Source: an uncultured Ruminococcus sp. (GTDB lineage: Bacteria > Bacillota > Clostridia > Oscillospirales > Ruminococcaceae). From it: a stretch of 32,607 nt of DNA. The stretch lies in assembly GCA_900315755.1 (NCBI GenBank), contig ONAI01000016.1:1-32607 (forward strand). Reading direction: 5' to 3'. Within the stretch, counting starts at the first letter, position 1, and each line of letters starts with the position of its first letter. Positions 4,431-23,488 of this stretch are shown one piece after another. The notes beneath the pieces are model-generated. The model did no database searches. It was given only the letters and a program-made list of their open reading frames with translations, and was not told the origin of the DNA. Position numbers and translations under genes: made by a program.

Positions 4431-4457
4431 TAAGTCTCCGATCCATTGAGCGCATAA

Positions 4458-4484
4458 AAAGCCCCACATTTTATGTGGGGCTTT
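4458..4484 (+). terminator. Intrinsic terminator after the pectate lyase
   Basis: A perfect 12-bp stem, AAAGCCCCACAT and its complement, closes a 3-nt TTT loop; the 3' arm ends in TTT and a T-rich stretch follows. Almost the same stem recurs at 7391-7416. Confidence 0.85.
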
Positions 4485-4510
4485 ACTTTATGCCGCATAC
4501 GATAGGCTGT

Positions 4511-4552
4511 GCATATGACGATATATCAATCAATTCTATACGTCATATATGC
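4511..4552. repeat. Inverted repeat upstream of the ECF S-component gene
   Basis: GCATATGACG (4511-4520) faces CGTCATATATGC (4541-4552), complementary apart from a 2-nt bulge, with a 20-nt AT-rich centre. It lies between the pectate lyase terminator and the next promoter. It could be an RNA fold or a protein site; function unknown. Confidence 0.4.
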
Positions 4553-4562
4553 TAAAAACCGC

Positions 4563-4582
4563 AATATCATGTTCGTGATATT
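4563..4582. promoter_or_regulatory. Palindromic operator-like site before the ECF S-component promoter
   Basis: AATATCA (4563-4569) and TGATATT (4576-4582) form a perfect 7-bp inverted repeat around 6 bp, ending 15 bp before the -35 box. Size, symmetry and place fit a dimeric regulator, which I cannot name. Confidence 0.4.
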
Positions 4583-4597
4583 TGTGCTGTTAAACAC

Positions 4598-4626
4598 TTG
4601 CAAATCGGATATTATAGTGCTATAAT
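4598..4626 (+). promoter_or_regulatory. Sigma-A promoter of the ECF S-component gene
   Basis: TTGCAA (4598-4603), a 17-bp spacer and TATAAT (4621-4626), with an extended -10 TGC at 4618-4620. Confidence 0.75.
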
Positions 4627-4666
4627 TAACGCATACAAAACCAATATGAATAAAAGGTGGTTTATC

Positions 4667-5194
4667 ATGACAAGAACTAATCAAAAAGCTAAAATCAGAT
4701 ATATGGTACTCACAGGGCTGTTTTCTGCGCTGATCTACGTTTTCACAGCCTTCCTGCATATCCCGACAGGTGCCGGATATACTCACGCCGGAGATGGTTT
4801 GATATACCTCTCAGCCTCGATCCTCCCCTTCTATTATGCAGCTGCTGCCGGTGCTATCGGAGCGTCACTTGCTGACGGTCTTTCCGGATTTGCAATATGG
4901 ATACCGGCAACACTCATCATAAAAGTCATTACAGCTTCATTCTTTACCAATAAATCAGATAAGATACTCTCCAAACGAAATCTGCTTGCAATACTTCCGT
5001 CATTTGTCCTGTGCGTAGTAGGTTACAGCCTCTACGAAGGCATAGTAATGGCAAAAGGATTTTCAAGTTCAGCAATAATCGCTGCATTCGCCCAAACTCC
5101 CGCTTACTGCGTTCAGATAGCTGCAAGCTCCGCACTTTACATCTTTACAGCATCTGCTCTCGACAGAATGAATTTCAAAAAGAGAATAATGTAA
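4667..5194 (+). CDS. ECF transporter substrate-binding S component
   Basis: A 175-aa membrane protein with about five to six hydrophobic segments. The N-terminal stretch YMVLTGLFSALIYVFTAF, the HAGDGLIYL motif, and the GAIGASLADGLSGFAIWIP and TLIIKV segments are typical of S components of energy-coupling-factor vitamin transporters (PF07155-like; TIGR04002 is the closest group I recall). It would bind a vitamin or precursor and share an EcfA/A'/T module encoded elsewhere. The substrate is not evident; pyridoxine- or thiamine-related compounds are possible by family only. The ATG at 4667 lies 7 bases after AGGTGG; the frame upstream overlaps the promoter and is not used. A palindrome just before the promoter suggests regulation. 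Confidence 0.78.
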   Translation: MTRTNQKAKIRYMVLTGLFSALIYVFTAFLHIPTGAGYTHAGDGLIYLSASILPFYYAAAAGAIGASLADGLSGFAIWIPATLIIKVITASFFTNKSDKILSKRNLLAILPSFVLCVVGYSLYEGIVMAKGFSSSAIIAAFAQTPAYCVQIAASSALYIFTASALDRMNFKKRIM

Positions 5195-5201
5195 CACAAA
5201 A

Positions 5202-5241
5202 AAGTCCCGAAACGATCAGATCAGCGCTTCGGGACTTCGTT
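5202..5241 (+). terminator. Intrinsic terminator after the ECF S-component gene
   Basis: AAGTCCCGAA (5202-5211) pairs with TTCGGGACTT (5228-5237) over a 16-nt loop, followed by CGTTTT. Confidence 0.7.
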
Positions 5242-5268
5242 TTATCATTCGGTTTCTGAGGTCTGATA

Positions 5269-5297
5269 TTGACTTAACAAATCAATTGTGCTATAAT
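5269..5297 (+). promoter_or_regulatory. Sigma-A promoter of the lipoprotein/azlCD stretch
   Basis: TTGACT (5269-5274), a 17-bp spacer and TATAAT (5292-5297) preceded by an extended -10 TGC. No terminator is visible until 7391, so it may drive both lipoproteins and azlCD. Confidence 0.75.
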
Positions 5298-5327
5298 CTA
5301 ATATAGTTAAAAAGGAGGAATTGCCAC

Positions 5328-6155
5328 ATGAAGAAAAAATATGCATTTTTAATGTCACTGATGCTCTTAACTTCAATGTTCGCCACTGCCTGCGGAGACA
5401 GCGATGAATCAAGCAAATCAGCCAAAGCATCTACTACTTCCGCTTCTGAAAAAGAAGACGCATCAGACATTGATGATACTTCCGATGAAGAGACTACAAC
5501 AAAAAAACAGTCTACTACCAAAAACGGTATAAAGCTCCCCGATGCTTCCGATGAAGCTGTTGAGGACGAAACTGTTGATAGTGCAGCTGAGGGTACTGAT
5601 TTCCAAAGCGGTACTATTGAAAACAACGTTTACACAAGCGATTTTGCCGGTATCAGCTTCAAGATCCCGGAAGGCTGGGGCGTAGCAAGCAAAGAACAGC
5701 TCCTCGCTTTAGTAAACTACGGCCTTGACGCAACAGGCAATCAGGATCTTGTTGATAAGGATTCACTTGAAAACAATGCAATATATGACGCTGCTGTTCA
5801 CGGAAGCAACGGCGAAACTATCATGATAGTCTTTGAGAACCTCAAAAAAACTACCTATGATCCCGACAGCGTTACTGAAAAAGTATACCTTGAAGCTATG
5901 AAAACTCAGTTCGATAATATGGTTTCGGGAGTTACTTATTCAAACGTTTCCGGTCCTGAGAAGATAAAGCTCGGCGGCAAGATATTCTATAAGTATTCGC
6001 ATGATGCTACTTATGATGTGCTTGGAGGATACACTGTAAATCAGTGCTACTATTGCCGTAAAATCGGAGATCTGCTGTTATCTGTAATTATGAGTTCCGG
6101 CACAGACGGTGCAGATATGTCTGTATATGAGAGTAATTTCTCTCCCGCAGAATAA
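5328..6155 (+). CDS. Predicted lipoprotein of unknown function
   Basis: A 275-aa exported protein. A Lys-rich start and hydrophobic core lead to FATAC, a plausible lipobox with the lipidated Cys near residue 22. A low-complexity Ser/Thr/Asp/Glu/Lys linker follows to about residue 95, then one globular domain beginning around FAGISFKIPEGWG. That 'F.IPEGW' entry is seen in many small surface-lipoprotein domains of Firmicutes (PsbP-like folds), but I do not recognise a named family. AAGGAGG lies before the ATG. It is followed at 18 bp by a second, very small lipoprotein gene and then azlCD. Function unknown. Confidence 0.75.
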   Translation: MKKKYAFLMSLMLLTSMFATACGDSDESSKSAKASTTSASEKEDASDIDDTSDEETTTKKQSTTKNGIKLPDASDEAVEDETVDSAAEGTDFQSGTIENNVYTSDFAGISFKIPEGWGVASKEQLLALVNYGLDATGNQDLVDKDSLENNAIYDAAVHGSNGETIMIVFENLKKTTYDPDSVTEKVYLEAMKTQFDNMVSGVTYSNVSGPEKIKLGGKIFYKYSHDATYDVLGGYTVNQCYYCRKIGDLLLSVIMSSGTDGADMSVYESNFSPAE

Positions 6156-15163: not shown

Positions 15164-15202
15164 CAAAAAAATTACCGGGTCTGTAAATTCAAGCCCGGTA
15201 AT
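15164..15202 (-). terminator. Terminator of the phage-derived operon
   Basis: On the minus strand ATTACCGGG pairs with CCCGGTAAT (arms 15171-15179 and 15194-15202) and is followed by seven T. It lies 50 bp after the last phage-like gene and insulates the GH74 promoter. Confidence 0.85.
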
Positions 15203-15251
15203 CTGCTTTTATATTAAGTTAGTCTTGCTAAATCAGGTCTTATTACTGCGT

Positions 15252-16157
15252 TTACTGATGCGGAAAGCCGTCCTCATACACATCAAGACGAGTAAACATA
15301 CCATTCTGGCTTCCATAGACCGATACGGCAGATATACGCTTTGAAGTTACTCCCGGAAAGCTTACTACATCCGAGAGATCTTCGCCGTTATGTCCGCTGT
15401 AAGTGCAGAACTTGCCGACTGATGCGCGTGAACAGAATTTATCGCGGTAAACAAGTGCATCCTGAGGAGATTGCAGAAACTGCATATCAAGATCAAAGTA
15501 TTTGTGACGTACTATCTTACGTGCTGCAACATCATCGTCCTGAAGATCATAAGTTCCGAAATCACCATTTATATCAGCCATATGAAAATTACTTATAAGA
15601 TTCTGACCAGTTTCTGTCATACCGACAGAGATCAATTGATCGGCTGTATAGGAAGTTACCTGCGGATCAGGATATGGAGTTATCCTTACACAGTTTGTTC
15701 CGCGGATATACGGATATGTTCCGCAAAGCTTGTAAGAAAGGTTTGCAACGCCGTCCCACATTGATGAGTTCTTCTTGACATAGATGTAATTGCTCGCATC
15801 TGAGTTGTTCTCATGCGTAACATATGGCAGTGTGTAGAATCCGTCCATGAGGGAATTGATAGAAACTCCGCTTTTAAGTCCCGGTTCTATCTGATTCTGA
15901 CAAAGCAGCGATGTGAAGCCTTTCGAGGTTATCTTCAATATCGTCCCCTCTCCGGAAGTTTCTGCGGTTATAGAATCAAGAAGCCCGTGATGTACAGCGT
16001 GTCTGTTTATAACAAGCTGTATCTCGGCAGTATCCGGAAAGCTCTGATGATCGGCTGCTATGCTGCATCTGAACATCGTATACGGAACATAGGCATCCTT
16101 CCTGAAAGTAAAATCGAGCAATTTCTCTTCCCTTACATAGTTTCCGGCAGAATCCAT
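15252..16157 (-). CDS. Baseplate-hub / XkdQ-like phage tail protein
   Basis: A 301-aa protein resembling the late-control D / XkdQ group of phage hub proteins: an N-terminal strand-rich part with VPYTMFRCSI and EIQLVINRHAVHHGLLDSI, then ILKITSKGFTSLLCQ, the SSMWDGVANLSYKLCG and TNCVRITPYP segments, and a C-terminal FPGVTSKRISAVSVYG. In phages this hub ends the tail tube and holds the tail tip. The first ATG (16157) lies 29 bases beyond the only good ribosome-binding site (AGGAGGGTG, inside the previous gene's stop). The frame stays open to that site with conserved-looking sequence (LEAYVNI), so the true start is probably a CTG at 16178 or ATT at 16181. Last gene of the operon; no tape measure, tube or sheath gene precedes it. 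Confidence 0.65.
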   Translation of the reverse strand: MDSAGNYVREEKLLDFTFRKDAYVPYTMFRCSIAADHQSFPDTAEIQLVINRHAVHHGLLDSITAETSGEGTILKITSKGFTSLLCQNQIEPGLKSGVSINSLMDGFYTLPYVTHENNSDASNYIYVKKNSSMWDGVANLSYKLCGTYPYIRGTNCVRITPYPDPQVTSYTADQLISVGMTETGQNLISNFHMADINGDFGTYDLQDDDVAARKIVRHKYFDLDMQFLQSPQDALVYRDKFCSRASVGKFCTYSGHNGEDLSDVVSFPGVTSKRISAVSVYGSQNGMFTRLDVYEDGFPHQ

Positions 16158-16182
16158 TATATTTACATAAGCTTCCAGAATA

Positions 16183-16572
16183 TCACCCTCCTACACTTTG
16201 AAACTCTTCAACGGCGAGTGTCAGACTGAAATCAAGATAATTCCTGCCGCTGTCCTCGACTGTAAACGCCGCTACACGACATTTTTTGCAGCTTATCCCA
16301 CGATAAAAGAAATTGAACGTCTGAGAGTTATCCATGAAACCCTTCAGGACACATACAGGCTCCATTGGTGTGGTCTCGTTAAAAGTCCTGCCCTTCAGAA
16401 CAACTCTTGAACACTTCGGATGAATGTTTGTTACGGCGTTTCCGCCGCTGACAGTAGCTCTTTCGGCTATAACTTTAGTATCAGAAACACTGAAGCTGTC
16501 GCAGAAAAGCTGTATGCCGCATATAAGCACCGGAACAGCCTTGCGCTGTTCAAGGATCAGATCACCGTTCAT
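16183..16572 (-). CDS. Small phage-like structural protein of unknown role
   Basis: A 129-aa protein that I do not recognise. It is rich in predicted beta strands (VPVLICGIQLFCDSF, SRVVLKGRTF, SLTLAVEEF) and holds a cysteine pair in GISCKKCRVAAF. By place, between a tail-terminator-like gene and the hub gene, it could be a tail-tube, tail-adaptor or baseplate subunit. Its start overlaps the upstream stop (ATGA) behind AGAGGTG, and its own stop carries the ribosome-binding site of the hub gene, so it is tightly built into the operon. Confidence 0.55.
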   Translation of the reverse strand: MNGDLILEQRKAVPVLICGIQLFCDSFSVSDTKVIAERATVSGGNAVTNIHPKCSRVVLKGRTFNETTPMEPVCVLKGFMDNSQTFNFFYRGISCKKCRVAAFTVEDSGRNYLDFSLTLAVEEFQSVGG

Positions 16573-16979
16573 ATTTCACCTCTTTCGATGCGTGTAACTC
16601 CGCCTGTTGAAAGAACTGCCGACAGGACAAGTCTGCCGATATTGGAATCGAATTTTACAGTCAGCTTTTTCAGCGATGAAGTAAGCCCCATGAATTCATC
16701 AAGAGCATCTGCGACCTTTCCACTGTAATAGTCATACAGCGTTTCAAGCGGCATATCAGGCGGCGCGGTTATCTTTACGCTTACATCCGCCCTGAACGGC
16801 AGATACGCAACATAAGGCGTATAGACAGGCGTAAAGCTTTCAAACGAATCAACACCGACTATCGTGTATATCCCCTTTTCCTTGCGGTCAGTCCTTACAG
16901 CATCAAAAGCACTGTAAACCGGCGAAGCTCCTGCACGGAGAAGTGCTGTTTTCATGGTTTCGATCAATGTATTCAGCAT
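16569..16979 (-). CDS. Tail-terminator / head-tail joining-like protein
   Basis: A 136-aa protein. The N-terminal helix (LNTLIETMKTALLRAG), a middle strand set (YLPFRADVSVKITAP), a helix (MPLETLYDYYSGKVADALDEF) and the final strands fit the fold of small phage tail-terminator or minor capsid-joining proteins. No sequence motif is decisive. It overlaps the connector gene by 7 bp and the next gene by 4 bp. Probable role: closing the neck or tail end of a particle; this rests mainly on gene order. Confidence 0.5.
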   Translation of the reverse strand: MLNTLIETMKTALLRAGASPVYSAFDAVRTDRKEKGIYTIVGVDSFESFTPVYTPYVAYLPFRADVSVKITAPPDMPLETLYDYYSGKVADALDEFMGLTSSLKKLTVKFDSNIGRLVLSAVLSTGGVTRIERGEI

Positions 16980-17350
16980 ACCTTCTCCCCTCCTGAAACT
17001 CCTGAAAATACAAATGTTTTCCGCTCTATGATGTCATCGCAAAGCTGGAGATAGTCCCTGAGCAGCGCGGCAGCACCGGAAAGCGGACTCGTTTCGCCTG
17101 CTTTCAGCATTTTTCCGGCATAAGTAGCAGTTGTAAGATCACGAGATGCCTCAGCTTGTCTGAGACGGTAGTTTGCCATTGCTGCCGCAAGGAAACCAAG
17201 CCGGACATCATTAACATCCGCCGCAGGACTGAGCATATTTTCGGTCTCAGCAACTGCAAGCGTGATGAATGGCATAAAATTCGCGGATTCTTCGCCCGAA
17301 AACAGTTCAAACAGACTCTTTACAGAACCAATATCCATATTGCACCTCAT
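16973..17350 (-). CDS. Head-tail connector (gp6-like) protein
   Basis: A 125-aa mostly helical protein of the size and pattern of gp6/XkdH-type connectors: an N-terminal helix (VKSLFELFSGEES), a second (PFITLAVAETENML), a third rich in Ala/Arg (LGFLAAAMANYRLRQAE), and a C-terminal helix. Such proteins form a ring beneath the portal. The start at 17350 overlaps the previous stop by ATGA; the second ATG at 17338 has GAGGTG just before it and may be the true one (121 aa). Position after capsid and protease-like genes supports the call more than sequence does. Confidence 0.55.
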   Translation of the reverse strand: MRCNMDIGSVKSLFELFSGEESANFMPFITLAVAETENMLSPAADVNDVRLGFLAAAMANYRLRQAEASRDLTTATYAGKMLKAGETSPLSGAAALLRDYLQLCDDIIERKTFVFSGVSGGEKVC

Positions 17351-18177
17351 TTCATTGAAAATACTGCATTATCTTCGGCAGCATCATTCTCGCTTCTTAG
17401 TTCAATCTTTATCCCGTTCCTGCCGCGACGATTTTCAAGTGACTTTTTAAGCGTGATAAGCTGCTGAGTGTTCATACCTCTTGCTGTCAGACCAACAGTT
17501 TTAGCAGCCTCTCTTCCGCCGACAAAGTAAGCAAGGCGGCGTATATCTCTGCGGAGTTCCTCATCAGCAGCGATACTGTCCTCAACAGGAGAAGTAACAA
17601 CATCACCGGATGTATAATGCTTTGTAACTCCGGCATTTACCTGCGCCGGAACTGCCACAAAGCTCCACTCATAAGCGTCGCTGATGCCTTCAAGGATGTC
17701 GTAGCAAAGCTTTTCGCCGTATTTTCTGCCTTTTACGTGGCTGCATGAGCCTTTTGCCCTGTCACAGCCGCATATCGAGCAGATGCGTCTTTCTGCCGAA
17801 CAGGAAATGCTTACCTCCTTTTTGATACCGCCGTCGATCTCGGAAATGAGGTCCTTATTCTCGCCGGTACGCACCATATAGGCACTTGCTTTGAGGTATC
17901 TGTACATTTCGCCGGTCTTGGTGATACGCACATCATCACTTACTATCTCTGTATCAAAAATACGTGCAGTCTGATTGGCAGATGTCGCATTGTGATCAGA
18001 AATACCTGTCTTGCCGACAAATTTATCTTTGAGTTCTTCAAGCGAAGCATCGGAAAAGCGCTCAAAATCGCGGTCGATCTCGTTATCGCAGAGTATCACC
18101 GAAAAAACATACACCTCATCCTCTTTGAGCGGACGGCGTGTGAAACGGTTGATCTTTTCGAGAATATCAGTATTCAT
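17347..18177 (-). CDS. Prohead-protease-like protein with a zinc-knuckle insert
   Basis: A 276-aa protein. The order EIDRDFERFSDASLEEL, GISDHN (His near 62), EVSISC (Ser near 123-125) and YEWSFVAVPAQ (about 169-179) matches the S78/HK97 prohead-protease layout, so it would be expected to cleave scaffold or capsid termini during maturation. Between the serine region and the EWSFVAVPA strand sits a Cys-rich insert, CSICGCDRAKGSCSH (about 133-147), plus a further Cys, probably a zinc site. The C-terminal third is polar and helical and could act as scaffold. AAGGAGG lies 4 bases before the ATG. It follows the capsid gene rather than preceding it, the reverse of the common order. Activity is inferred. 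Confidence 0.65.
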   Translation of the reverse strand: MNTDILEKINRFTRRPLKEDEVYVFSVILCDNEIDRDFERFSDASLEELKDKFVGKTGISDHNATSANQTARIFDTEIVSDDVRITKTGEMYRYLKASAYMVRTGENKDLISEIDGGIKKEVSISCSAERRICSICGCDRAKGSCSHVKGRKYGEKLCYDILEGISDAYEWSFVAVPAQVNAGVTKHYTSGDVVTSPVEDSIAADEELRRDIRRLAYFVGGREAAKTVGLTARGMNTQQLITLKKSLENRRGRNGIKIELRSENDAAEDNAVFSMK

Positions 18178-18214
18178 AGTTCCTCCTTGTAGTTTTGATC
18201 GTATCGGAAATTCA

Positions 18215-18243
18215 GAGGATGCTCTGCAAATCAGAGCATCCTC
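18215..18243 (-). promoter_or_regulatory. 12-bp stem-loop between capsid and protease-like genes
   Basis: A perfect 12-bp inverted repeat (GAGGATGCTCTG and its complement) around 5 nt, starting 11 bp after the capsid stop. No T-run follows, so it is unlikely to be a full terminator; it may protect the capsid mRNA 3' end or give partial termination. Confidence 0.6.
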
Positions 18244-18254
18244 CTCTTGGTCAA

Positions 18255-19226
18255 TTATGAACCGCTCTTGATCTTGAGCACCTTAACGGCATCCGGAGTG
18301 ATCTTCTTGAAGCCGCAATTGATAGAAACTGTGATCTGATCGAGCTGGCGGTCGATGAGCTTATCTGTTTCCATAACAAGATCAGTGCTTGTGATAAATT
18401 CAAGCGCAAAATCACGGTCTATACCGATGATTTTCTTCTCGGGCGCAGCTGAGCACTTAATGAGTTCAGCACCGAGAGGAATGATAAGTCTACCCTGCGA
18501 ATCAGCAGAGCAGTCTTTAAGCTGCTCCATAGCCGCGATAAGAGCAGCATTCTCAGGAGAAGCGATAACGGTAGTCATATCAAATGCACTGAAGCTTCCG
18601 TAAAGATTGGCAATATCAGCATAAGCGAGAGTAGTTGTTGCAGTTTCAACTTCATCAGCACCGGTTACGAGCGCTGTAACAGCCGCATTCACAACAGATG
18701 CAGCAAGTCTCACGCCGATGCTTCTGAGCATGACTCCGAAAACGTCAAGTCTCTGCTGACGCACAGCCTCATATGATGCACTGATAAGTCTGCCGTATTT
18801 TGCAAGTGTAACAGCATTTGCCCCCTCAGTGACAGTAGCCTCAGGAAGAGTTGTACCCTCAGAAGCAGTAGTATAGGTCTCACTGTCATCGAGATCACAG
18901 CCAAGATACTGGCTGGAATTCGCAACGGTCTTAGCAGCACAGATACTGCCAAGAATAGTCTCATCGAAACCCTTTCTGATAGAGCGTGTAACAAACTCAG
19001 GGAAAAGAACTGCTGTTTCAGTAGATGAGAAGAACTTCTCAACGCAGTCGCAGTCCTGACCGCTGATACGGATATTGAATCGCTTCAGCTGACGCTCAAA
19101 TGCATCAAGCTTTTCGAGCGGAGTTCCTGCGTAAGCTGAGGAAGGATCGAGTTCCTCAAGAGCAGCGGTAAATGATCTTCCGCTGAGGTTGTAAAGTCCC
19201 TTTTCAAGTTTAATATCGTTATACAT
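18255..19226 (-). CDS. HK97-like major capsid protein
   Basis: A 323-aa protein with the layout of an HK97-fold capsid subunit: a short N-terminal arm, a segment ending in FPEFVTRSIRKGF, a strand-rich middle (EGANAVTLAKYGRLISASYEAVRQQRLDVF reads as the long spine-helix region), an A domain with VIASPENAALIAAMEQLKD, and a C-terminal strand set (LITSTDLVMETDKLID type). There is no long N-terminal delta/scaffold domain. The ATG at 19226 follows GGAGG by 6 bases; the open frame upstream overlaps the portal gene and is not family-like. It sits 13 bp after the portal stop. A strong hairpin follows it. Confidence 0.7.
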   Translation of the reverse strand: MYNDIKLEKGLYNLSGRSFTAALEELDPSSAYAGTPLEKLDAFERQLKRFNIRISGQDCDCVEKFFSSTETAVLFPEFVTRSIRKGFDETILGSICAAKTVANSSQYLGCDLDDSETYTTASEGTTLPEATVTEGANAVTLAKYGRLISASYEAVRQQRLDVFGVMLRSIGVRLAASVVNAAVTALVTGADEVETATTTLAYADIANLYGSFSAFDMTTVIASPENAALIAAMEQLKDCSADSQGRLIIPLGAELIKCSAAPEKKIIGIDRDFALEFITSTDLVMETDKLIDRQLDQITVSINCGFKKITPDAVKVLKIKSGS

Positions 19227-19239
19227 AATATACCTCCGA

Positions 19240-20385
19240 TTAATTATTATTGTTCGTCTGAGCATCCAGACGAAGTTCGATCTCTCTTGCCTGTGCGTTC
19301 TTGAGACGAGCCTCAGCAAGAGCTGTTTCATCCTGAAGATTGATGTTTTCCCATTCAACACTGCAATCCGCCTCTGCACCTATCGAACTCAGATAAGCAC
19401 CGGCAACATCGCATATCACGGGAGTTATAAGCCGCCTGTAATATTCCAGCTCTGATGTGAGTATATCAGCCTGCTGAGAGGACATCCTCTCCGTTGAACT
19501 CCAGTTGAGTCCAAGCAGGAAAGGCGGTATAGACAGCTTTGCAATAAGCTGTTCCAGTATCTGACGCACCGGAACATTGGTGTCAAACAGCTGATTATCC
19601 GCGCCGATGACCTTTATGTCCACATCTCCGACCGCCACGAAGTCCTTGACCTGACCATAACGCGCAGAATTCATGCCGTCCGCCCACTCATCAGCGATCT
19701 GCTGAGCACGTTCGCGCGAATACACGAAATCATCTGTACCGCTCTGAGGCTTATAGACTACCGCATATCGCACATTTCCTGCGCGGTCGTAGTTCTGACC
19801 GATACATTCGTATATCCTGAGCAGAATACCGCTTAACGCCGGCAGCCCTCTCAGAACAGAGTGTCCGCCAGTCAGCGCGGCATACAGGATATTCTCAGGA
19901 TGCTCGACCTTGTGACATGAACCGTCTTTGCTCCTGACAGTATAAGACCTCGCAAACGGTTCTTTGCCAGCCTGCATACGAACAGCTGAAACATCACCCA
20001 TCCATAGTCCTGCGATAAGCTGGTTTTCGCTGTCCTGAACTATCTCACAGACCGCGCTTCCGTAAGTCAGAAGACTATCAAGAAAATTATCAGCGAAACA
20101 ATTTATTGATTTTCCGCTTAATCCTACCGGAACATTTTCAAGGAAACGATCAAGATCATTCTGATATTCCTCATCGCTGCATACAACTCTGAATCCGCCA
20201 GTTAAACGAATTATTTTCATCAAAGCTGCATCTATGACCGGAACAGCTGCTCTCAGTCTGTCATAGAGCTCCTTTTCAGCAGGCTGTATTACCTGCGGAA
20301 GGCTCATACTCATATCATGAGAACGCGCAGCCGAAATAAGTTCGGGAACATTATGCGAAGCCCCCTTCTTCTTAAATAGCTTCAT
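19240..20385 (-). CDS. Phage portal protein
   Basis: A 381-aa portal, the dodecameric ring at the capsid vertex through which DNA is pumped. Recognisable parts are VIDAALMKIIRLTGGF, FLDSLLTYGSAVCEIV, the WMGDVSAVRM strand, LRGLPALSGILLRIYE, and the late LIAKLSIPPFLLGLNWSSTERMSS stretch with its SE.YRRLI.P helix. It is slightly shorter than many portals. The start chosen at 20385 has a strong AAAGGAGG 5 bases before it. An in-frame ATG at 20451 overlaps the terminase stop by ATGA and would add 22 residues without family features. Confidence 0.82.
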   Translation of the reverse strand: MKLFKKKGASHNVPELISAARSHDMSMSLPQVIQPAEKELYDRLRAAVPVIDAALMKIIRLTGGFRVVCSDEEYQNDLDRFLENVPVGLSGKSINCFADNFLDSLLTYGSAVCEIVQDSENQLIAGLWMGDVSAVRMQAGKEPFARSYTVRSKDGSCHKVEHPENILYAALTGGHSVLRGLPALSGILLRIYECIGQNYDRAGNVRYAVVYKPQSGTDDFVYSRERAQQIADEWADGMNSARYGQVKDFVAVGDVDIKVIGADNQLFDTNVPVRQILEQLIAKLSIPPFLLGLNWSSTERMSSQQADILTSELEYYRRLITPVICDVAGAYLSSIGAEADCSVEWENINLQDETALAEARLKNAQAREIELRLDAQTNNNN

Positions 20386-20447
20386 TTTTCCTCCTTTCGC
20401 GCCTTCCTTAACGGACGGCGCACCGAATGATGAACGGCGGCAGTTAT

Positions 20448-21692
20448 TCATCGTCTTACCGAAAGCGCTACCATATCACTGCCTCTTGAACTAAGAATAT
20501 CGGTAACAAAATACCTCATATCGTCCATAGCGTGATCGTTCTCCTTAACAGGAGCATCGCTGCCGGTCTTTTCGTTCCAGCAATATAGCTGAAATTCGCG
20601 TATGATGTCGCTGCATGATTCATGAAAAAGCAGTTTTCCCTCTCTGAGCATAGTGCTTACGCGGCGTATTCCAGCAACAACGTCATTGTCAGCCTTTACA
20701 ACTCTGAATCTTGAATGTCTGCGGATACACTCGATAAAGCTTGCCGCCGAAGGATCAACTATAACATGACTTATCCTCCTGCTGCCGGCAAGCTCTTCCA
20801 GAGCTGAATAGTGTTCCTCGTCCGTGCGCTGAACTCCCTCTCGTTTTGAGGAATAGTAGTATTCCTTCAGGCGATGCCATACGCCGTTGTGAAGTCCCCA
20901 CAGACCAAATGATGAAGGATTGACAGTGCCGTAATCACATGAAATAATGTAGCGTTCGCAGTCTATCTCACCAGAATAAACGTGCTTTTCCCTGCTGAAC
21001 ATCGGATACACAGCGCCCTGAGCGGCAGTCCACTTTCCGAGCACGAATCTATCATAAAATGTGCCGGTATAAAGACGCTTGTAGCGATCTTTCATCGAAG
21101 CAGTCAGCGAAGGATTATCGTCCATAGTAAAATGGAGATACAGCGCGTGTTTCTCTTCGTGTTTTCTTATCCACTCGTTATAGAACCAGTGCGCCGGAGT
21201 ATCCGGATTGCAGTTGAACCACATTTTCGAGCCGGCAACAGAACATCTCGCCAGAGCTTGTTCCACAAATGAACGCGGCATAAGTGCGACCTCATCGAAA
21301 AAAACTCCGGAAAGCGTCATGCCCTGAATGAGCGAGGCAGAGCCCTCATCCTTGCCGCCGAAAATATAGAAACGGTTAGTCTTTCCGAGAAATGTCGCAT
21401 CGAAGTAGTTTGCGCTCACCTTCTCAATACAGGTGAAACCGTACTGTTTCAAAACAGGCAGAAGCGGCGTTACGACATTCCTGCGCAGCGAAGTAATAGT
21501 CTTGCCACATATCGCAAAAGAACCGCCGCTGAAGCTGCTGCAAGCCCAGAACATAAAGCCGAGCGACATCGAAAGTGTTTTTCCGCTCCTGACCGCACCG
21601 TCACAGATAACAGCGTCCATAGCGCGGTATTCCGGAATAGTCCACCATTTCATAGCAAGCTTCTGTTTGCGCGAGAGTTTACGGATCATCAT
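20448..21692 (-). CDS. terL: PBSX-type terminase large subunit
   Basis: A 414-aa packaging motor: an ATPase that drives DNA into the procapsid plus a nuclease that cuts it. Walker A is GAVRSGKT (about 32-39), Walker B is GVFFDEVALM (Asp-Glu near 133-134), the coupling motif is NCNP (about 160), and the RNase-H-like nuclease shows SCDYGT (Asp near 253), VIVDPSA and a C-terminal HAMDDMRY carrying acidic residues. All catalytic residues I can place are present. It overlaps the small-subunit gene by 14 bp. The match is to the PBSX/SPP1-like Terminase_3 group. Confidence 0.9.
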   Translation of the reverse strand: MMIRKLSRKQKLAMKWWTIPEYRAMDAVICDGAVRSGKTLSMSLGFMFWACSSFSGGSFAICGKTITSLRRNVVTPLLPVLKQYGFTCIEKVSANYFDATFLGKTNRFYIFGGKDEGSASLIQGMTLSGVFFDEVALMPRSFVEQALARCSVAGSKMWFNCNPDTPAHWFYNEWIRKHEEKHALYLHFTMDDNPSLTASMKDRYKRLYTGTFYDRFVLGKWTAAQGAVYPMFSREKHVYSGEIDCERYIISCDYGTVNPSSFGLWGLHNGVWHRLKEYYYSSKREGVQRTDEEHYSALEELAGSRRISHVIVDPSAASFIECIRRHSRFRVVKADNDVVAGIRRVSTMLREGKLLFHESCSDIIREFQLYCWNEKTGSDAPVKENDHAMDDMRYFVTDILSSRGSDMVALSVRR

Positions 21693-22158
21693 TATCCTCG
21701 TCCTCCCCGGAAGAGATCAGTGCCGACATCAGATCAGAAGCTTTATCGCGGTCGGAAAAAGCATTGCTCAGTTCAAAGAGCTTTTCGAGCGCTTTAAGCC
21801 TGTCAAAAAGCTTTACCTCAACACCGCCGCCCTTGACGCGCTTTATCTCAGAAACGTTAAACAGATCAAGCTTGCTTATTACCTCGGCAGGCGGAAGTTC
21901 ATCCGCGAAAACAAGATATACCGCATCCGAGCAGTTTCCAAATGCAAGCCTGTTAAGTCCTGCAACGATGTTTGCACTGTCTGAGATCAGCTGACGCATC
22001 TCTGCGATCTTTTTCCGGCAGCAGTCCGATCTGAGATACTTCATGCCTTCACTTAACGCTGATTCATCTGGCACTCCTGCTTTCGCAGCAGCTTCGGCGA
22101 CATTTCCAAGCATAACATAGTTGCAGCAGAAAGCATCTCTCATTGAATTATCCTTCAA
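21679..22158 (-). CDS. terS: Terminase small subunit
   Basis: A 159-aa DNA-recognition subunit of the packaging motor. The N-terminal helix-turn-helix region (FCCNYVMLGNVAEAAAKAGV, then SEGMKYLRSDCCRKKIAEM) and the C-terminal KLFDRLKALEKLFEL helix are typical of XtmA/Terminase_2 proteins. The longest frame begins with TTG at 22158, 10 bases after AAGGAGG; an ATG at 22143 with GAAGGA 7 bases before it is equally possible. First gene of the operon; a hairpin-forming palindrome lies just before its ribosome-binding site. Confidence 0.8.
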   Translation of the reverse strand: MKDNSMRDAFCCNYVMLGNVAEAAAKAGVPDESALSEGMKYLRSDCCRKKIAEMRQLISDSANIVAGLNRLAFGNCSDAVYLVFADELPPAEVISKLDLFNVSEIKRVKGGGVEVKLFDRLKALEKLFELSNAFSDRDKASDLMSALISSGEDEDNDDP

Positions 22159-22181
22159 AAATAGTTGACCTCCTTTCGTTC

Positions 22182-22200
22182 TGAACGGAACCGCCGTTCA
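22182..22200. repeat. Inverted repeat before the terminase operon
   Basis: TGAACGG (22182-22188) and CCGTTCA (22194-22200) form a perfect 7-bp inverted repeat around 5 bp, just upstream of the AAGGAGG of terS. It may be a repressor operator or a hairpin in the mRNA leader. Confidence 0.5.
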
Positions 22201-22268
22201 CTAAGGGGCAAAAAAACGCCTTTTTTCAATGCAAACCCGTTGAATATTGAAAAAATTATTTTTGAGTT

Positions 22269-22299
22269 TGTATACCTGCACAAGTGCAAGCTTTTACAA
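22269..22299 (-). promoter_or_regulatory. Candidate promoter with operator for the phage-derived operon
   Basis: On the minus strand, TTGTAA (22294-22299) and TATACA (22269-22274) are 19 bp apart, wider than ideal. The spacer holds a palindrome TGCAC-AA-GTGCA (22277-22288), the usual place for a repressor site. Weak evidence. Confidence 0.3.
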
Positions 22300-22387: not shown

Positions 22388-22663
22388 ATGCAGGAAAAAA
22401 TCAAACAGAACCACAATCTCATTCTTGAAAACCGAAAAAGTCTCAATATATCCGGAATAACCGATGTTGACAGCTTTGATGACCGCGAAATATGTCTCTA
22501 TACCGAAATCGGCGAACTAACCATTCAGGGACGCGAACTACATATCGACTCGATGAGCGTAGAGACTGGCAACATGACCATAACAGGCGATATATGGGCA
22601 CTTGTCTACGGCGATAAGGATCGCCGCGGACCAATATCCGCAATCGGAAGGCTGTTCCGATGA
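22388..22663 (+). CDS. yabP: Sporulation protein YabP
   Basis: A 91-aa protein of the YabP/YqfC family. NRKSLNISGITDVDSFDDREICLYTEIGELTI and IDSMSVETGNMTITGDI are characteristic. In Bacillus YabP is made in the mother cell and needed for spore cortex/coat development. The ATG at 22388 lies 8 bases after AGGAGG; the frame is open upstream to 22247 but that part crosses the sigma-E-like promoter and is not protein-like. It overlaps yabQ by ATGA. Confidence 0.9.
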   Translation: MQEKIKQNHNLILENRKSLNISGITDVDSFDDREICLYTEIGELTIQGRELHIDSMSVETGNMTITGDIWALVYGDKDRRGPISAIGRLFR

Positions 22664-23307
22664 ATATTCCCGAAACCTTTTTCAGTGTAAACGAGGAAAT
22701 GCGGCTCTTTGGCTATTCGTGTCTGCTCGGAGCTGCTCTCGGACTTTTCTATGATGTATTCCGAACTCTCAGAATGCTTTTTCGTCATAATACTGTACTC
22801 ATCGCCATTGAGGACATAGTGTTCTTTGCAGCATATGCAATAGCCCTCACAGCTTTTGCATCCGCAGCAGCTCGCGGAGAGATGCGTTTTTACTATGTGA
22901 TAGGCAGCGTATCGGGATTTATACTGTATCTCCTTACTTTAGGTCAGTTGATTTCGGCTGTTATAAAGAAGCTGATAGCAGCTTTAAGAGTGGTATTTCA
23001 TGTAATTTTAAGTCCTCTGAGGCGGTTTTATGTACTTTTACGTAAAAAAGCAGTGTGCAAATTTGTGGGAACTTCCAAAGTTTTTGTTCAAAAATTAAAA
23101 AAAGCCTTTTTGCTATTGCTAAAAAGACCGCCTTTGTTGTATAATAAAAAAGAAAATAAAATGAGAAAGAATGGGGATAATTTTGTCAAAAAAACCAAAA
23201 AGGATGGAACGCAGTCTCTTCAACGGTCTGCTCGTAAAACTCGCAGCAGTCACAGTAGCAATAGGCTGCACAGTAATAATCGTATCAACAAACAGAGACT
23301 GCTCTGA
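22660..23307 (+). CDS. yabQ: Sporulation membrane protein YabQ, extended C-terminus
   Basis: A 215-aa membrane protein. The first ~110 residues hold the YabQ core (GYSCLLGAALGLFYDVFRTLRML, IEDIVFFAAYAIALTAFA, FYYVIGSVSGFILYLLTLG), with about four membrane segments, needed for spore cortex formation in Bacillus. After about residue 160 the sequence becomes basic and low-complexity (Lys/Asn/Ser/Arg) and overlaps the divIC gene by 137 bp in another frame. The core is complete; the tail may be a recent extension by stop-codon loss. Confidence 0.85.
   Translation: MNIPETFFSVNEEMRLFGYSCLLGAALGLFYDVFRTLRMLFRHNTVLIAIEDIVFFAAYAIALTAFASAAARGEMRFYYVIGSVSGFILYLLTLGQLISAVIKKLIAALRVVFHVILSPLRRFYVLLRKKAVCKFVGTSKVFVQKLKKAFLLLLKRPPLLYNKKENKMRKNGDNFVKKTKKDGTQSLQRSARKTRSSHSSNRLHSNNRINKQRLL
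23116..23145 (+). promoter_or_regulatory. Sigma-A promoter inside yabQ serving divIC
   Basis: TTGCTA (23116-23121), an 18-bp spacer and TATAAT (23140-23145), 26-38 bp before the possible divIC start codons. It would allow vegetative expression of the division gene independent of sporulation. Confidence 0.6.
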
Positions 23308-23488
23308 TAAAGAAACTGAACTCAGCGAGATCCAGACAAAGATAGATACTCTGGAAGCTAAGAATTCTGAACTCCAGCGTGATCTCAACAGCGATGACAG
23401 ATCAGGATATATCGAAAAGATCGCAATGGAGCAGCACGGCTATGCCTATCCGGATGAACGCCGATTCTACGATACATCAAGAGATTGA
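23171..23488 (+). CDS. divIC: DivIC/FtsB-family septum formation initiator
   Basis: A bitopic division protein of up to 105 aa: basic N-terminus, one membrane helix (LLVKLAAVTVAIGCTVIIVS, about 19-38), a coiled coil (KETELSEIQTKIDTLEAKN and on), and the short C-terminal EKIAMEQHGYAYPDERRFYD motif typical of DivIC/FtsB. It acts with FtsL and DivIB/FtsQ at the septum. The frame opens with ATG at 23171, but a TTG at 23183 has GGGGA 5 bases before it and may be the true start. Place after yabPQ and before yabR is the conserved Firmicutes order. Confidence 0.85.
   Translation: MGIILSKKPKRMERSLFNGLLVKLAAVTVAIGCTVIIVSTNRDCSDKETELSEIQTKIDTLEAKNSELQRDLNSDDRSGYIEKIAMEQHGYAYPDERRFYDTSRD

Follow-up and report, generated by a model that had tools for sequence, protein, structure and literature searches.

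Gene transfer agents such as RcGTA and CcGTA of Alphaproteobacteria are viriforms, that is, vertically transmitted phage-derived packaging genes, according to the available part of one report (PMC9662315). In the accessible sections of a virome study (Borodovich et al. 2026; PMC12946183), capsid-protected chromosomal DNA is described from Faecalibacterium and Gemmiger (8.4–8.9 kb) and also from CAG-115, R. callidus (4.6 kb), Onthomonas, and Christensenellaceae. A candidate operon is reported in these sections only for Faecalibacterium (FpGTA I), and none is named for R. callidus. FpGTA occurs in all 12 Faecalibacterium genomes examined there, forms particles of ~40 nm with no identifiable tail, and is split in one strain over two loci ~125 kb apart, the second of which holds baseplate, fibre, and lysis genes. 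As far as its accessible sections go, this study alone bears directly on the element described here, a block of nine phage-derived head and packaging genes in a 32,607-nucleotide stretch of DNA (the window) from an uncultured Ruminococcus sp. (contig ONAI01000016.1). In kind, the block is best classed as a viriform resembling gene transfer agents, of a new and tail-reduced type. Judging from its genes, it is probably a host-domesticated packaging module that makes small hub-plugged capsids.

Proteins encoded by the block

The block consists of nine intact open reading frames (ORFs) on the minus strand, which run from 22158 to 15252 and span 6.9 kb in the order terS, terL, portal, capsid, S78-like protease, g6, g7, g8, and g9. 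The small terminase subunit TerS (159 residues, TTG start, 21679..22158) matches Pfam Terminase_2 (2.5e-12) and is encoded in 29 of 29 loci from the genus. The large terminase subunit TerL (414 residues, 20448..21692), with ATPase and nuclease parts, matches Pfam Terminase_6N (9e-16) and the PBSX-family TerL model TIGR01547 of NCBIfam (212 bits against a cut-off of 105). Its relatives of solved structure are 5oe8 (E 9e-176) and 5oea (E 3e-175). A first-pass annotation of the same DNA had noted the terminase motifs, and residues K38, D133, E134, D253, D313, D386, and D390 of TerL are indeed identical in 100% of 95 aligned rows.

The portal protein (403 residues, 19240..20451) remains under its Pfam cut-off (33.1 against 39.1 bits) but nonetheless matches the PHROG portal family 30703 (6e-132). 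The major capsid protein (323 residues, 18255..19226) matches Phage_capsid_4 (2.5e-12) and the major head protein family PHROG 3922 (3e-67). The matches of TerS, TerL, and the capsid protein exceed the family cut-offs. The S78-like prohead protease (276 residues, 17347..18177) has a Cys/His cluster and a C-terminal extension. It belongs to PHROG 16951, a family of unknown function (7e-91), and its match to the S78 protein XkdF is weak (0.03). His62, Ser123, C126, C133, C136, C145, and H147 of the protease are conserved in 100% of 94 aligned rows.

Proteins 6–9 have no significant family match in Pfam, PHROG, or NCBIfam. The g6 protein (125 residues, 16973..17350) is a putative head-tail connector by its position, and its genus profile matches 47 of 70 loci from a wider sample. 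The g7 protein (136 residues, 16569..16979) weakly resembles the terminator of fuller relatives and is a probable tail terminator; the alignment to the corresponding gene in other families has an hhalign probability of 52 and an E-value of 1.5e-4 over 119 columns. The predicted fold of g8 (129 residues, 16183..16572) fits a tail-tube-like or tube-initiator-like protein, and that of g9 (301 residues, 15252..16157) is that of a baseplate central hub without a spike or lysozyme. Fold matches were ranked by VIA-align 2 among chains preselected by Foldseek. Sequence searches with the portal and hub profiles found no solved relative, and the hub and g7 alignments yielded nothing useful in PHROG. None of the nine proteins matches sheath, wedge, fibre, lysis, tail-length (tape measure), or receptor-binding families, and no PADLOC model matches any of them.

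Direct alignment gives no support for homology between g8 and the LysM-bearing "P-like" protein that fuller relatives encode (hhalign probability 1.6). After iteration, however, P-like profiles do match an ORF located where g8 would be in four loci of the wider sample (L147, L135, L189, and L191; 3e-5 to 9e-4).

Conservation and selection within Ruminococcus

TerL was searched in 60 genomes. Of the 36 that belong to the genus, 32, including the genome of the window, have an orthologue, with identities of 68–82% in the 31 others. Among near-complete genomes of the genus (>=90%), the orthologue is present in 22 of 23 and missing from G006 only. Six genus genomes carry additional, more divergent TerLs, the fetched loci of which lack other block genes. 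All nine genes are in identical order and on one strand in 29/29 fetched genus loci; the order is therefore not due to chance. The run of nine intact frames in the first-pass annotation is confirmed. Two genomes whose terL orthologue lies on a short contig (G005 and G017) were left out of the gene-order loci. Searches by tblastn alone missed the capsid gene of L024 and g8 of L037, although an ORF for the latter exists. The L024 capsid is the one clearly shortened copy among the 261 genes in the 29 loci. The neighbours of the locus vary and include a BNR-repeat protein in 12/29, AzlC in 10/29, and AzlD in 8/29 genus loci.

The nine genes also occur in order in R. flavefaciens strains FD-1, ATCC 19208, YAD2003, and Y1. 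R. albus 8 has a related set, of which tblastn detects six genes, with the protease ahead of the capsid. The block is thus present in cultured strains and offers a specific nine-gene knock-out candidate for the packaging of chromosomal DNA.

All nine genes are under purifying selection. Ratios of non-synonymous to synonymous substitution rates (dN/dS) were calculated by the Nei-Gojobori method against R. flavefaciens SIG534 (L074), the closest named relative, which is 96.5% identical over the block; the values are rough, with 1–10 non-synonymous changes per gene. For terL, portal, and capsid, the three genes for which the first-pass annotation had proposed this calculation, dN/dS is 0.045, 0.103, and 0.015. 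The remaining values are 0.037 for terS, 0.072 for the protease, 0.104 for g6, 0.027 for g7, 0.082 for g8, and 0.067 for g9. Comparisons with three closer IMG/VR contigs gave 0–0.16, except for a 77-residue piece of the protease with 0.27 and four changes. A block confined to one strain, a position inside a full prophage, and neutral dN/dS had been named beforehand as observations that would speak against a domesticated module, and none of them was made.

Inheritance of the block

The descent of the block is mostly vertical. A tree of five block proteins from 27 genomes was compared with rpoB protein and nucleotide trees of the same genomes. It shares 14 of 24 splits with the rpoB protein tree (Mantel r 0.65) and 9 of 24 with the rpoB nucleotide tree, and 1000 label permutations produced at most three common splits with either. 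The guaB marker agrees weakly (5/20 splits), and rpoB was used afterwards. Wherever TerL and guaB share a contig (11 genomes), they lie 2–55 kb apart, and three of these contigs measure 1.4–3.6 Mb. The vertical transmission that characterizes gene transfer agents was thus found in the main. The earlier proposal of a domesticated, mostly vertically inherited head module is supported by the retention in 22/23 near-complete genomes, the agreement with rpoB, the host genes in the flanks, and the lack of mobility genes among the proteins scanned.

Comparison with known packaging systems

According to the accessible text on FpGTA I/II (PMC12946183), these systems and the block are alike in being compact chromosomal packaging and head operons of related gut bacteria, with no replication genes. 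However, FpGTA is described there as podovirus-like, whereas the block has relatives with a contractile tail.

For a direct comparison, FpGTA I-like loci were assigned by genus label, one marker match, and gene order, with no accession match. What we take to be the FpGTA marker protein matched G402 alone among 197 family genomes, and the genus label of G402, g105, is presumably Faecalibacterium-like; other g105 genomes, which were possibly within that sample, gave no match to the marker. Three g105 genomes (G139, G402, and G462) carry a TerL locus with the order terS, terL, portal, scaffold-like gene, capsid, and further genes, which agrees with FpGTA I as published. The FpGTA I-like operons are L268–L271, two of which are in G402. 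Against these four loci of three genomes, eight of the nine block profiles have no match below 0.01 with filters off, and the TerL profile matches marginally (6e-4 to 3e-3). In the FpGTA-like genomes, there is no match to the portal profile and none to the TerL profile at 1e-3. Homologous portal, capsid, and scaffold proteins, which would place the block in FpGTA I, were not found in these searches. Because no homology to FpGTA I is detectable beyond the marginal TerL match, the block is classed from sequence as a lineage independent of FpGTA, under our own assignment of the FpGTA I loci.

PBSX of Bacillus subtilis possesses a baseplate hub. The block resembles PBSX in its PBSX-family TerL above the cut-off, the weak XkdF protease match, and the same predicted hub fold class. 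Of the features that define a PBSX-like element, the large terminase is present, whereas the head genes are not accompanied by any match to a sheath, tape measure, wedge, fibre, or lysis family among the nine proteins; unlike PBSX, the block is fixed across the genus. The genes of RcGTA are scattered over several loci and provide a siphovirus-like tail. The block differs from RcGTA in having no tail module and in being known here from genes alone. Capsid-forming phage-inducible chromosomal islands (PICIs) have head and packaging genes and no tail module. The block resembles them in its head and packaging genes but differs in having no integrase beside it and no pattern of mobility, as far as the scanned flanks show; the search did not extend to att repeats.

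Phage-derived head and packaging genes lie here in a cellular genome, as in gene transfer agents, and no replication or integration genes of their own were found among the nine block proteins, the 20 flanking proteins of the window, and the shared flank families. Of the features of a temperate prophage, integrase, repressor, replication, and lysis genes were not observed in the block and its scanned flanks, nor was strain-level presence. An encapsulin would be an HK97-fold shell without terminase and portal, both of which are present and conserved in the block.

Tail reduction and dispersal of head genes in relatives

Related loci form a series from head with sheath, tube, and baseplate, through head with baseplate, to head with hub, the form found in Ruminococcus. 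The sample comprised 70 further loci, some also titled Ruminococcus, that were searched by profiles. Sheath is present in 13 and baseplate wedge in 23 (12 with sheath and 11 without), and 46 have neither, some owing to a contig end. The fullest form, L212 from the same family, combines terS, terL, portal, protease, capsid, and connector genes with genes for sheath (PHROG 4e-26), hub (PHROG 1e-21), wedge (5e-64), and a further tail protein (1e-18); it also encodes a tube-like protein and a protein that is fibre-like by position. There is no tape-measure-sized ORF between the tube gene and the hub region, where the longest ORFs have ~100–230 residues. The genus is at the short end of the series, with the baseplate wedge protein (Baseplate_J) in one of 40 genomes. 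Relatives with more and less tail constitute a natural series for asking what the tail of a gene transfer agent does.

Sheath and tube without a tape-measure-sized gene were seen in L190, L192, L194, L196, L201, L202, L205, and L212, and the same pattern recurs in L216, L217, L218, and L222. The tail of such sheath-bearing elements may be very short. In forms without sheath, the tube profile matches two fusions: L185 8325–9110 (261 residues, also terminator-like) and L193 10420–11148 (242 residues, also fitting the closure profile).

In two small genomes of the same family, G126 (0.7 Mb) and G145 (0.9 Mb), both 97% complete, the head genes are split over three places, with a lone portal among host genes, terS-terL at a second site, and protease-capsid at a third (L307, L313, and L209 in G126; L308, L210, and L312 in G145). 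Their TerL, capsid, and protease have full-length profile matches of 1e-106 or better, the portals match the genus-only profile at 6e-116 and 1e-115, and TerS is short (107 and 135 residues). That the separated head genes are still full length argues for a host function. G126 retains g6, hub, and fibre genes beside terL, and its wedge ORF, which has 203 residues compared with ~350 elsewhere, may be broken; in the stretches fetched from G145, there is no g6, hub, or tail gene. The dispersed loci recall the scattered genes of RcGTA, a likeness drawn from description.

Distribution in the order and in phage records

Matches to the portal profile were obtained in 67 of the 148 genomes sampled from the family, in 43 of the 295 from the order, and in 9 of the 391 from the class; some genomes recur between these samples. 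All eight strong matches in the class sample are in the order of Ruminococcus, and the remaining one covers 56 residues at a marginal 6e-4; related sets were not found outside the order among these 391 genomes. There is one block per genome, and zero genomes have two full-length portal matches. In named genomes there are at least 536 relatives, of which the best 80 are listed.

The phage collection contains six portal relatives, in five faecal "Bacteriophage sp." records and in Microcystis phage MACPNOA1. Translations were read for four of the five faecal records (MT835508, MT835769, MT835952, and MT836604; L070–L073), with MT838993 left out. In these four, bacterial housekeeping genes adjoin the head genes; in MT835508 a ribosomal-protein operon lies beside them. 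The accessible part of one report describes virus-like-particle sequencing of faeces from Mexican children (PMC8361208), from which the four records may stem. Nine IMG/VR contigs of 2.8–6.6 kb carry pieces of the block. Head genes of such blocks thus enter virus catalogues as phage, though they can sit in bacterial chromosomes.

Proposed function and alternative explanations

In the proposed mechanism, the head module of a PBSX-type contractile phage would have been captured by an ancestor in the order of Ruminococcus, retained among the genes of the host, and cut back in Ruminococcus to what the making and filling of a capsid require. TerL and TerS would load double-stranded DNA via the portal into the capsid, the S78-type protease would mature the capsid, and g6 and g7 would close the neck. 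The g8 protein and the g9 hub, whose counterparts are distal tail components in relatives with longer tails, would cap the neck directly, and the particle would be a small DNA-filled head with a stub. The block likely packages DNA, given the invariant motif residues of the terminase and protease and the published packaging in a related species. The cargo would be host chromosomal DNA, as in gene transfer agents; this is the most likely cargo because no replication or integration gene was found in or beside the block and because the block acts like a fixed locus of the host. The 6.9-kb block would not fit into a capsid for 4.6 kb of DNA, which is what one expects of a gene transfer agent. We infer assembly, packaging, cargo, release, and delivery from the genes, and the block is a good candidate for the machinery that packs Ruminococcus DNA into small shells.

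A narrower version of this reading is put forward tentatively. It envisages a tail-reduced family of gene transfer agents, confined to part of one order and structurally unrelated to FpGTA, whose tailless, hub-plugged DNA capsule would be the source of the packaging in R. callidus and would deliver DNA by means other than injection. Released DNA could be taken up by competent cells, for example, or DNA could pass in membrane vesicles. If this version is true, the block would be the so far unnamed source of the gene-transfer-agent-like packaging in R. callidus. Vesicle-borne DNA transfer in Ruminococcus involves DNA of 23–90 kb as related in two reviews (Klieve et al. 2005), which does not fit pieces of 4.6 kb.

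Several observations weigh against the block being a domesticated packaging module. Particles, packaged DNA, or transfer have never been seen for this operon; R. callidus was not identifiable among the genomes examined, and the link to the 4.6-kb pieces is one of kinship only; and no receptor-binding, lysis, or tail-length gene was found in the block. Supported splits of the block tree contradict 4 of 13 supported splits of the rpoB protein tree and 6 of 16 of the rpoB nucleotide tree, and there are 24 conflicting pairs of supported splits between block and guaB, so that some exchange is possible. Among 30 genomes with both terL and guaB, 19 have them on different contigs, and in at least G008 and G029 the contig positions force a distance of more than 55 kb. 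No portal was found in 81 of the 148 genomes from the family and 252 of the 295 from the order; therefore, it is dispensable or often lost. A single in-frame stop interrupts the portal gene in 5 of 67 family genomes (G117, G123, G127, G129, and G160) and in 3 of 43 order genomes (G244, G377, and G382), and the portal of G144 is a fragment only, which may reflect decay in some lineages or assembly errors. The capsid gene of L024 (G031) is a 61-residue remnant between portal and protease, a loss that is possibly real or an assembly artefact, and terL of G017 has an in-frame stop. Finally, MACPNOA1 (KY697807, L314), a real phage from outside the order that carries a tape measure gene, has a portal relative (28% identity, E 1e-26) at 4440–5555, within a gene annotated as glycerone kinase.

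The alternatives were weighed against the same data. The block could be a head factory that borrows tails, its DNA-filled heads being completed with tail components from a resident prophage or a different locus before they deliver DNA. Such borrowing would account for the lack of wedge, fibre, lysis, and tail-length matches among the nine proteins, and it has a parallel in the separate baseplate, fibre, and lysis locus of FpGTA in the accessible part of PMC12946183. However, Baseplate_J occurs in one of 40 genus genomes, and the block retains its own terminal hub. We regard tail borrowing as unlikely, although it is weakly tested, with no genome-wide search for fibre, sheath, or lysis genes. 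The first-pass annotation had expected tail parts to be needed from elsewhere, which has found no support so far; the block already holds two predicted tail-end proteins, tube-like g8 and hub g9, and may thus need no outside parts. It is quite unlikely that the capsid has a use other than carrying DNA, as a compartment, decoy, or anti-phage device with a passive or defensive terminase. No delivery parts are recognised in the block, as such a use would predict, but the ATPase and nuclease motif residues of TerL are invariant in 95 rows, its dN/dS is 0.045, portal and terminase are kept where reduced genomes break up the operon, and PADLOC models match none of the nine proteins.

A contractile or tailocin-like killing particle related to PBSX is brought to mind by the TerL family and by the sheath, tube, and baseplate of some relatives in the order. 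We judge it very unlikely, as the nine proteins show no match to sheath, wedge, or fibre families and the wedge is absent from 39 of 40 genus genomes. The possession of head and packaging genes, for which a helper tail is conceivable, would also suit a PICI-type, capsid-forming satellite mobilized by a helper phage. This origin is highly improbable in view of the lack of an integrase among the 20 flanking proteins and the inspected shared flank families, the lack of a second full-length portal in any searched genome, and the agreement of the gene tree with rpoB in most splits. Least probable is a decaying cryptic prophage, to which the truncation relative to fuller elements, the L024 capsid remnant, and the portal stops might be attributed. 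Against this stand the single clearly shortened copy among 261 in the 29 genus loci, dN/dS far below 1 in all nine genes, and the retention of the block in 22 of 23 near-complete genus genomes.

Operon signals and flanking genes

The junctions between the genes mostly overlap or abut, as had been described: five of eight overlap by 4–14 bases, and the remaining gaps are 13, 77, and 25 bases. The 13-base gap assumes that the capsid protein starts at the ATG at 19226, and the listed capsid ORF begins upstream, in frame, at 19379. Good ribosome-binding sites precede six genes (terS, terL, capsid, protease, g7, and g8), and none is obvious ahead of portal, g6, and g9; the statement that nearly all genes have good sites was therefore slightly generous. 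The claimed terminator at the end of the set was recovered as an intrinsic-terminator-like hairpin on the minus strand (15165..15201), in which TTACCGGG and CCCGGTAA form a perfect 8-bp stem with a 14-nt loop, followed by T7. It is absent from the listing of the terminator scan, which accepted loops of 3–8 only.

A 5′ leader of ~125 bases ahead of terS (22165..22289, minus strand) is conserved across 29 aligned leaders of the genus, including that of the window; a 30th (L060), cut by a contig end, was excluded before alignment. The leader comprises a box TTGTGCAnnnATACAAA, an A/T-rich tract, a small hairpin, a CCTTATGAACGG core, and the terS ribosome-binding site, and may be a shared regulatory site. 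The z-score of leader folding is below -3 in 13 of the 29 leaders and ~0 in the window. Hairpins able to hide the terS ribosome-binding site are very stable in several species but not in the window. RNAalifold of the aligned leaders retains only a 5-pair hairpin, and covariation is weak, with a fraction of canonical pairs of 0.66 at the best register compared with 0.63 with rows shuffled. An occluding hairpin was dropped in view of the window z-score and the weak covariation, and the conserved leader alone was kept. Rfam has no match within the window.

The GC content of the block is 46.9%, and those of the flanking sides are 45.4% and 45.3%. In Pfam scans, the 20 flanking proteins of the window are products of host genes, with no phage, integrase, or repressor protein among them, in line with the first-pass annotation; replication and integration genes were likewise not found among these and the nine block proteins. 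No integrase was found in 14 flank families that are shared by >=3 genus loci and were read by eye; att repeats were outside this search. The flanking proteins include pectate lyase, AzlC, AzlD, citrate synthase, aldose epimerase, a BNR-repeat protein, ThiF, YabP, YabQ, DivIC, S1, shikimate enzymes, and acyl-transferase and ketoacyl-synthase III enzymes, among others. The YabQ ORF (22660–23307) overlaps the DivIC-like ORF (23171–23488) in a different frame.

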